Positions 2,938-15,390 of a stretch of 25,585 nt of DNA are shown here, one piece after another. The position numbers were made by a program, and so were the translations under genes. Numbering within the stretch: the stretch's first letter is position 1; each line of letters opens with the position of its first letter. The DNA comes from a virus. The stretch covers positions 1 to 25,585 of IMG/VR virus record IMGVR_UViG_3300035698_008659, one strand, 5' to 3'. Below the pieces are notes generated by a model. The model saw only the letters and a list, made by a program, of their open reading frames with translations. It did not search any database and was not told the origin of the DNA.

Positions 2938-3309
2938 ATGACAAACAGAATAGATAAGCCAGACCTGATTCAGACATTAACTGAATCGCCAGAAAGAATA
3001 AAAAGATATAGTATGGAGCAGTTAGATAATGCACTAAAGTATGATGCATTATTATTACAGAAGAAATCTGTGAAATTAGAATTCTCAAAAACCATTGATA
3101 AGGAAGTAGATGATAATGGTAAGAAAAGATATGGAAGCGAACTTAAGAGAACTGTAGAGCTTCGAGTAAGATTAGACAGAGATGATTCCTATAAACAATT
3201 AAGGGAAAACATCGAAAGCCTTAAGGCAAGAATAGAAACAGGAAAGATTGAATTACAATATATGACCTATATGTTTCGAGCAAGTGAAGCTCTGACAAGG
3301 TTATTATAA
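2938..3309 (+). CDS. Coiled-coil protein, unknown function
   Basis: This gene encodes 123 residues with SD ggaggt at optimal spacing. It is charged and largely helical: an N-terminal helix with LTESPERIKRYSMEQLDNAL, a central basic strand-like region (KKRYGSELKRTVELRVRLD), and a C-terminal coiled coil ending YMTYMFRASEAL. The pattern recalls small phage replication-region proteins of unknown function. It has its own TATA-like promoter and is followed by a large hairpin and a gene-free structured region. Confidence 0.7.
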   Translation: MTNRIDKPDLIQTLTESPERIKRYSMEQLDNALKYDALLLQKKSVKLEFSKTIDKEVDDNGKKRYGSELKRTVELRVRLDRDDSYKQLRENIESLKARIETGKIELQYMTYMFRASEALTRLL

Positions 3310-3389
3310 CTCTGCAAAAAAGGTAGGAGGTTTTTGATATTCTTATGGCTTCACCTCCTTTGTGTATTTTCCTCCTCCTTTTGCAAGAG
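3310..3389 (+). terminator. Long bulged hairpin with competing inner stem
   Basis: The segment starts immediately after the upstream stop. CTCT (3310-3313) pairs with AGAG (3386-3389), GCAAAA (3314-3319) with TTTTGC (3379-3384), GG with CC, and AGGAGG (3325-3330) with CCTCCT (3371-3376). That is about 18 pairs with small bulges and a 40-nt loop. The same AGGAGGT can instead pair with ACCTCCT at 3353-3359 in the loop, so two mutually exclusive folds exist. No T-run follows, so it is either a 3'-end structure or the first domain of the adjoining RNA. The loop also carries TCACCTCCTTT (3351-3361), identical to the 16S rRNA 3' end motif. Confidence 0.5.
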
Positions 3390-3399
3390 AGTTAATTAA

Positions 3400-3480
3400 G
3401 AATTAGTAGTCTAATATCAAGATTCAGGAGATATCTAATAAAACAAGACCTGAGTTGCAGGTGTAAATCCTGCCCAATTC
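3400..3480 (+). ncRNA. tRNA-like cloverleaf (degenerate or atypical)
   Basis: The 81 nt fold by eye into a cloverleaf. Acceptor: GAATTAG (3400-3406) with CCAATTC (3474-3480), 6 of 7 paired. D-arm: GTCT/AGAT (3409-3412/3420-3423) with a 7-nt loop. Anticodon stem: TCAGG/CCTGA (3424-3428/3449-3453) with a 20-nt loop. Variable region: 3 nt. T-arm: GCAGG/CCTGC (3457-3461/3469-3473) with a 7-nt loop, TGTAAAT. The T-loop lacks the usual TTC, the D-loop lacks GG, the anticodon loop is 13 nt too long, and no CCA is encoded. It may be a tRNA remnant, a tRNA mimic or part of a larger RNA. A CTA triplet lies in the large loop (3435-3437). Confidence 0.35.
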
Positions 3481-3690
3481 GTTATATTCATAAGGGACAT
3501 AAAAAGTCTTTTTGAAACCGCCTCACAGCACTTGTAAAACAAAACGCACACGAAACTATGTGGAGTATGGTGTCTCCCTTCAAGTAAAGCAACCAGACTT
3601 TCGCAATTGACATTAACACCTTGCCTTGAATTCAAAGGCGTCACCAAAAGGTTTGTCTGGTTGTGCTGGGCGAATATTATTTGAGGGATA
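3481..3690 (+). ncRNA. Candidate structured non-coding RNA
   Basis: There is no credible ORF on the + strand, and G+C is about 43% at 3541-3660 against about 28-30% nearby. The 3' strand 3655-3672 is paired continuously in three blocks: GTCTGGTT with AACCAGAC (3591-3598), GTGCTG with CAGCAC (3526-3531), GGCG with CGCC (3519-3522). Nested inside are ACCTT/AAGGT (3618-3622/3648-3652) and GCCTT/AAGGC (3623-3627/3635-3639). Smaller hairpins (CACA/TGTG, 3547-3562) occupy the side domain. Stacked, coaxial helices in a GC-elevated gene-free island are what a stable viral RNA looks like in an AT-rich genome. It does not match an RNase P, tmRNA or SRP pattern that I can recognise. Confidence 0.55.
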
Positions 3691-3695
3691 GATAA

Positions 3696-4064
3696 ATGCA
3701 AGAAGAAGATAAAATATTCGGAACTACAATACTATTAATAATGATATTAATATTTGGATTAACTTTCTTTTTATTAAAAGATTATGAACCAAACAATATA
3801 GAAACAGCAACGGATTATATGGAAGATAAAATTCTTAATACTGATTATGGCTATAATAATAAACAATGGGTTGGAGGATTAACTATAAATCGACTGCAGT
3901 ATTATTATGAGAAATACTATATTGTATCAAGACCGATTCTTAAGAGAGAAACAGAGAAGATATGTGCTATTTGTGAGGGAATTAATTTATCTCACATTAG
4001 TAATCAATGTTTAGAAGATGTAGTAGATTATATTAGATTGGAGGATATAAATGAAAGCAAATAA
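3696..4064 (+). CDS. Single-pass membrane protein, unknown function
   Basis: This gene encodes 122 residues. A weak SD gaggg (3683-3687) lies 8 nt before the ATG, directly downstream of the structured RNA region. After MQEEDKIFG comes a hydrophobic helix (about 9-27, TTILLIMILIFGLTFFLL), then a soluble domain rich in Tyr with C90-x2-C93 (CAIC). The topology predicts a short inside N-terminus and a larger domain on the other side. No family is recognised. It overlaps the next gene by 14 nt. Confidence 0.65.
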   Translation: MQEEDKIFGTTILLIMILIFGLTFFLLKDYEPNNIETATDYMEDKILNTDYGYNNKQWVGGLTINRLQYYYEKYYIVSRPILKRETEKICAICEGINLSHISNQCLEDVVDYIRLEDINESK

Positions 4065-4317
4065 ACTAAAGAAACCATTAAATGTATTTATAATTCCTGG
4101 TGCAAGTACATTTCAAATACAACAAATGCAACAGATGATTAAACAGGGTGGAAAGTATATGATTTCTTCTGGTGAAATTAATTGTTACAGGTTTGATAAA
4201 GGCGAATGGTATATTGTGAGTAATGGTAAAAAGAAGTTTTCTGATTTAATTCCAAGTCAGAAGAAGATGAAGGGATTTTTGAAGAGAGTTATTGATAAGG
4301 TGGTTCATTTTGACTGA
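4051..4317 (+). CDS. Small basic protein, unknown function
   Basis: This gene encodes 88 residues with SD ggagga (4040-4045), 5 nt before the ATG. It is a basic protein with a Gln/Met-rich helix (STFQIQQMQQMIKQGG) and a beta-hairpin-like stretch (YRFDKGEWYIVSNGKKKF). There is no membrane segment or cysteine cluster. It could be a small nucleic-acid-associated protein, but this is not supported beyond charge. Confidence 0.65.
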   Translation: MKANKLKKPLNVFIIPGASTFQIQQMQQMIKQGGKYMISSGEINCYRFDKGEWYIVSNGKKKFSDLIPSQKKMKGFLKRVIDKVVHFD

Positions 4318-15291: not shown

Positions 15292-15368
15292 GGTTAGGAA
15301 GTGAAAGGCAGTTCATATCCTACCCTATCCGCCCTTGTTCACTACAAAGGCCATTGTAAAACAGGGGC
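15292..15368 (+). ncRNA. Twin-hairpin 5' leader RNA of the portal transcript
   Basis: Hairpin 1 (15292-15324): GGT/ACC and AGGA/TCCT with one bulged T, then GTGAA/TTCAT (one G-T wobble), apical loop AGGCAG. Hairpin 2 (15331-15368): GCCCTTGTT/AACAGGGGC (9 pairs, one wobble), a 3x1 internal loop, TACAA/TTGTA, apical loop AGGCCA. Both have a lower stem, an interruption, a 5-bp upper stem and a 6-nt loop starting AGGC. It lies between a TATA box and a portal gene that has no SD. It may control translation, stabilise the mRNA, or be bound by a viral protein. Confidence 0.55.
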
Positions 15369-15390
15369 AATTAAATTCACTTAATTCATA

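Follow-up and report, generated by a model that had tools for sequence, protein, structure and literature searches.

A putative structured RNA, about 160 nt long, beside a tRNA-like element in a phage, with a homologue in a related phage

The plus strand at 3515–3677 of the window, which is an entire linear IMG/VR virus record of 25,585 bases with 32% G+C, is best explained as encoding a structured phage RNA, free-standing and about 160 nt long, that belongs to an accessory cassette of tRNA-like RNAs, a reading to which a probability of about 0.6 is given. A structured RNA is supported because a related phage preserves a long helix through compensatory changes. In this respect the initial annotation, which proposed a structured viral ncRNA outside Rfam at 3310–3690, holds, while its energy argument and its assumption of one RNA do not: rather than a single extensive RNA of 381 nt, at least three elements (a hairpin, a tRNA-like element and a core of about 160 nt) were found. 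These and the parts of the core are listed below.

3310–3389, plus strand: imperfect hairpin directly 3′ of the stop codon of 2938–3309, arms GGTAGGAGG and CCTCCTCC
3400–3481, plus strand: degenerate tRNA-like element, acceptor GAATTAG/CCAATTC, T-arm GCAGG-TGTAAAT-CCTGC
3515–3677, plus strand: core structured RNA, helices P1 and P3 with a junction between them; homologue at 3676–3851 (minus strand) of contig L040
3519–3531, plus strand: 5′ strand of P1, CGCC, a 3-nt bulge UCA and CAGCAC; partner 3663–3672
3530–3541, plus strand: invariant ACUUGUAAAACA, identical in L040; two candidate P2 pairings, UUGU/ACAA and ACUUG/CAAGU
3580–3604, plus strand: conserved block UCAAGUAAAGCAACCAGACUUUCGC; 3577–3605 is identical to L040 at 25 of 29 positions
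3591–3662, plus strand: P3 stem-loop, AACCAGAC (3591–3598) with GUCUGGUU (3655–3662), and nested ACCUU/AAGGU and GCCUU/AAGGC stems
3663–3672, plus strand: 3′ strand of P1, GUGCUGGGCG; L040 counterpart GUGUCACGUG

Fold of the core RNA and its conservation in a related phage

The window encodes a family B DNA polymerase, a ParB-like/methyltransferase protein, a glycosyltransferase, terminase, portal, MuF-like protein, protease and an SU10-type capsid protein, and haloarchaeal tailed viruses are among the distant relatives of its proteins. The host was left unassigned because no relative of the capsid protein was found in genome contigs. No close relative turned up in viral contigs either when the genes on both sides and the complete polymerase protein were used as queries. 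A polymerase-based search brought in L040 (IMGVR_UViG_3300023112_000040, a contig of 40,355 bases), and by protein identity (capsid 72%, portal 46%, MuF-like 43%, protease 41%) the two phages are relatives. Elsewhere in the window, PADLOC matched 4051–4317 weakly to Cas11a (E 0.00087, 17.8 bits), probably by chance. In the gap ahead of the portal gene, at 15305–15390, the GC skew is reversed, a 9-bp hairpin (z −2.2) is present and TTGTAAAACA occurs for the second time; two copies of it were seen in 7 of 100 shuffles.

The pairing described in the initial annotation was reproduced exactly: the 18-nt strand 3655–3672 (GTCTGGTTGTGCTGGGCG) pairs in order with 3591–3598, 3526–3531 and 3519–3522, and the nested stems at 3618–3627/3635–3652 are present as ACCTT/AAGGT and GCCTT/AAGGC. 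The short match between window and L040 at the conserved block (E 0.006) led to the full homologue on the L040 minus strand, and the two sequences, each folded alone, gave the same P1 and P3. In both, pair probabilities were 0.95–1.0 for P3 and 0.79–1.0 for the outer and middle pairs of P1, with the two junction-side pairs of P1 at 0.28–0.63. The inner domain of P3 differs in L040 and is not clearly conserved, and the two P2 pairings are indistinguishable because neither varies.

Compensatory changes, for which the initial annotation had suggested looking in homologues, were present in L040. All 18 pairs of P1 and P3 are kept, and five of them are altered on both sides. These double changes affect 5 of the 10 P1 pairs, with CGCC/GGCG replaced by CACG/CGTG and CAGCAC/GTGCTG by TGACAC/GTGTCA, so that the 5′ strand of P1 reads CACG-AAA-UGACAC in L040; one further pair, in P3, changed on one side only, from A-U to G-U. 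In simulations with an equal number of random changes, none of 200,000 kept all P1/P3 pairs, and sliding the partner strand by 1–3 columns lowered the pairing from 100% to 28–51% with zero double changes. The covariation comes from a single comparison of two sequences and is not family-wide, and 12 of 500 pair shuffles matched it, which is about the limit for two rows.

A chance pairing in a gene-free stretch is therefore highly improbable: each P1/P3 pair is kept through changes, and in local similarity the core scored 40, whereas none of 1000 shuffles exceeded 29. What speaks for chance is that the folding energy of the core is no better than that of shuffles, and it is the comparison with the related phage, not the energy, that sets the structure above chance.

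The strand was assigned by wobble changes. Two of them (A-U to G-U and G-C to G-U) are compatible with the plus strand only, so the RNA was placed there. They also bear on a DNA-level reading, in which a replication or packaging site has inverted repeats that mimic RNA helices. The element is intergenic and G+C-rich and has inverted repeats, and in L040 a 532-aa ORF in terminase-gene position begins about 0.5 kb downstream of it; nevertheless, the window copy and the terminase gene are separated by about 8 kb, and G-U wobble changes together with conserved unpaired stretches fit an RNA, so a DNA element is given little credence.

The junction of the core RNA holds nearly invariant unpaired stretches. 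Small ribozymes typically look like this too, with helices that meet at a junction and loops that do not vary, and by this architecture a self-cleaving or otherwise catalytic RNA comes into consideration. It is decidedly unlikely, as no Rfam ribozyme family matched and a hammerhead core was not recognised by eye.

Coding potential, composition and folding energy of the gene-free stretch

The segment claimed to be gene-free was confirmed as such, with no credible gene at 3310–3695. The accompanying claim that the genes of this genome otherwise overlap fails in places, since 1820–2075 is an AT-rich gap (20% G+C) with no long ORF. The reported G+C island exists, 3551–3670 being the richest 120 nt of the record (45% vs. 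32% overall), although the margin is small, with coding stretches reaching 44%. A reading frame shared with L040 is improbable, because the alignment contains indels of 11, 12 and 13 nt; as these gaps are not all multiples of three, a coding region was rejected.

Folding energies were compared with those of shuffled sequences, and neither the full 381 nt nor the core stood out. The full stretch had a z of −1.49, with 7 of 100 shuffles equally good; 3515–3690 and 3519–3672 had z of −0.55 and −0.72, respectively; and the core 3515–3677, at −0.5 to −1.3 on both strands, has an ordinary folding energy. The stem-loop 3590–3663 does stand out, with a z of −2.7. A real RNA is possible even where, as here, its folding energy is indistinguishable from that of shuffles. 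Of the three outcomes that the initial annotation had named as speaking against it, only this ordinary energy was observed, the absence of compensatory changes and a conserved protein frame being contradicted by the comparison with L040.

Known RNA families were then considered. The core gave no gathering-level match in the window to Rfam 15; over 3250–3760 only two chance-level Rfam matches (E 2.8 and 6.9) were obtained, and none on the L040 core. In agreement with the initial annotation, which had recognised no RNase P, tmRNA, SRP or group I/II intron signature, tmRNA was rejected as ARAGORN made no call, and a group I intron, an RNase P RNA and a signal-recognition RNA were rejected as Rfam gave no match.

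Neighbouring elements and the downstream gene

The order in the window is hairpin, tRNA-like element, core RNA and the gene at 3696, while that in L040 is hairpin, core RNA, a skipping-rope match, tRNA-Gly, tRNA-Thr and the 532-aa ORF. The skipping-rope match (3510–3595; RF02924, 35.0 bits, E 3.1e-6) falls just under the cut-off of 36.7, and both tRNA genes are within 0.65 kb of the core RNA. No relatives of the genes flanking the core in the window, the 3696 gene included, were detected in L040.

These neighbourhoods bear on the option, raised in the initial annotation, of a cis-acting leader or riboswitch for the putative membrane-protein gene at 3696. That gene is immediately downstream on the same strand and starts 18 nt past the conserved part, and the structure could mask or expose its GAGGG ribosome-binding sequence. 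The ribosome-binding site is, however, outside the conserved structure, and the L040 homologue is followed by the skipping-rope RNA and tRNA genes, with no 3696 relative detected there. The same downstream gene, as would mark a cis-regulatory leader, is not conserved, since the neighbours differ in the only two members. A leader is thus rather unlikely, and a free RNA is the likelier of the two because the core has different genes beside it in each phage.

The hairpin (3310–3394) had a z of −3.2 to −3.4, and L040 carries a comparable one ahead of the core (3854–3900, z −3.0). The window hairpin, taken as 3310–3395, also holds CACCTCCTTT, similar to the 3′ terminus of 16S rRNA, together with a 16-codon ORF from ATG 3345 with GGAGG ahead.

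The element at 3400–3481 exceeds the Rfam tRNA cut-off (RF00005, 32.5 vs. 29 bits, E 1.2e-5 with 121 nt searched). At an 85% threshold, ARAGORN read it as tRNA-Ser(GGA), its sole such match in the window, and the shuffled region gave 53 in 2000; whole-window scans with Rfam and with ARAGORN at default settings missed it. The four-arm layout and T-arm are tRNA-like, while the anticodon arm is enlarged or misformed: a 7-nt anticodon loop with U33 is absent, the loop being 20 nt in the Rfam fold and CAGGAGA, with A33, in the ARAGORN fold. Working tRNAs have GG in the D-loop and TTC in the T-loop. Here the D-loop is AATATCA and the T-loop TGTAAAT, and the element was named tRNA-like rather than tRNA because both motifs are absent. 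The skipping-rope model RF02924 gave no match on 3400–3481 at E≤10. The 3′ end of the element matched the L040 skipping-rope element at 26 of 34 bases, with none of 1000 shuffles as good, but this similarity is ordinary against the whole L040 record, so that a kinship between the two elements is no more than hinted at.

Two further stretches were noted on the L040 minus strand. A strong hairpin RNA-like element (3276–3366, z −3.2), ending in GGTATG/CATACC, lies between tRNA-Gly and tRNA-Thr, and 3439–3505 has D-arm-like and T-arm-like parts (GGGTTCGAGTCCC) with no anticodon arm between them, a poor fold (z +1.0) and no Rfam call.

Distribution, related phage RNAs and possible role

A covariance model, R1, was built from the window and L040 sequences. 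On 36 records fetched via polymerase, glycosyltransferase or RNA pattern it matched L040 only; on 78 capsid relatives it gave no match, and no further copy emerged when 100 loci were searched more permissively. The searched set comprised about 110 related contigs, many of them fragments, in which absence of a match is no proof. When 1.7 Mb of fetched loci were scanned with a relaxed regular expression and the stems were checked, a full score was obtained only for L040 and the window. In viral contigs, the gapped pattern CTTGTAAAACAN{20,50}CAAGTAANGC was found in L040 and in two others, L053 and L054, which were judged chance matches as their surroundings showed no likeness; the strict pattern had no match in genome contigs. 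At the DNA level, the region gave only short chance-level matches to phage records, and the three inspected were in coding genes. From these searches, the core RNA looks accessory and rare.

Several phage RNAs offer a comparison. Phage T4 transcribes the small RNAs RNAC and RNAD, of unknown role, from its tRNA region (PMC3014915, PMC9697503). The setting, as described, is similar, yet the core in the window adjoins only a degenerate tRNA-like element. ROOL and GOLLD are structured RNAs of phages and prophages that are often near tRNA islands and have no known function (PMC12286853). Such a setting, phage-encoded and near tRNA genes, is found in L040, whereas the window has the tRNA-like element only. 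The Rfam models of ROOL and GOLLD had no match in the window, and GOLLD members are far larger than the core RNA, many exceeding 800 nt. The skipping-rope RNA (RF02924), a motif found in phages (PMC8501573), is a neighbour about 80 nt downstream of the L040 core homologue, and the core itself does not match RF02924. By analogy with T4 RNAC/RNAD, ROOL and GOLLD, the core is probably an accessory, trans-acting phage RNA of the tRNA-island kind.

As a free-standing phage RNA, the core would be co-transcribed with the adjoining tRNA-like RNA or RNAs, and host tRNA-processing nucleases might cut it out. During infection it would act in trans: the long helix of P1 and P3 would form a scaffold from which the invariant loops UUGUAAAACA and CAAGUAA are offered to a partner, which could most plausibly belong to the translation or tRNA machinery. 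Only tentatively can the window and L040 RNAs be proposed as the first two members of a phage RNA class not described before, which would be accessory in tRNA-like cassettes and would either target the translation or tRNA machinery of the host or be catalytic. The core RNA would add a further small example of a structured phage RNA near tRNAs; its fold is backed by evolutionary evidence, its boundaries are defined, and its short length suits chemical probing and structural studies.
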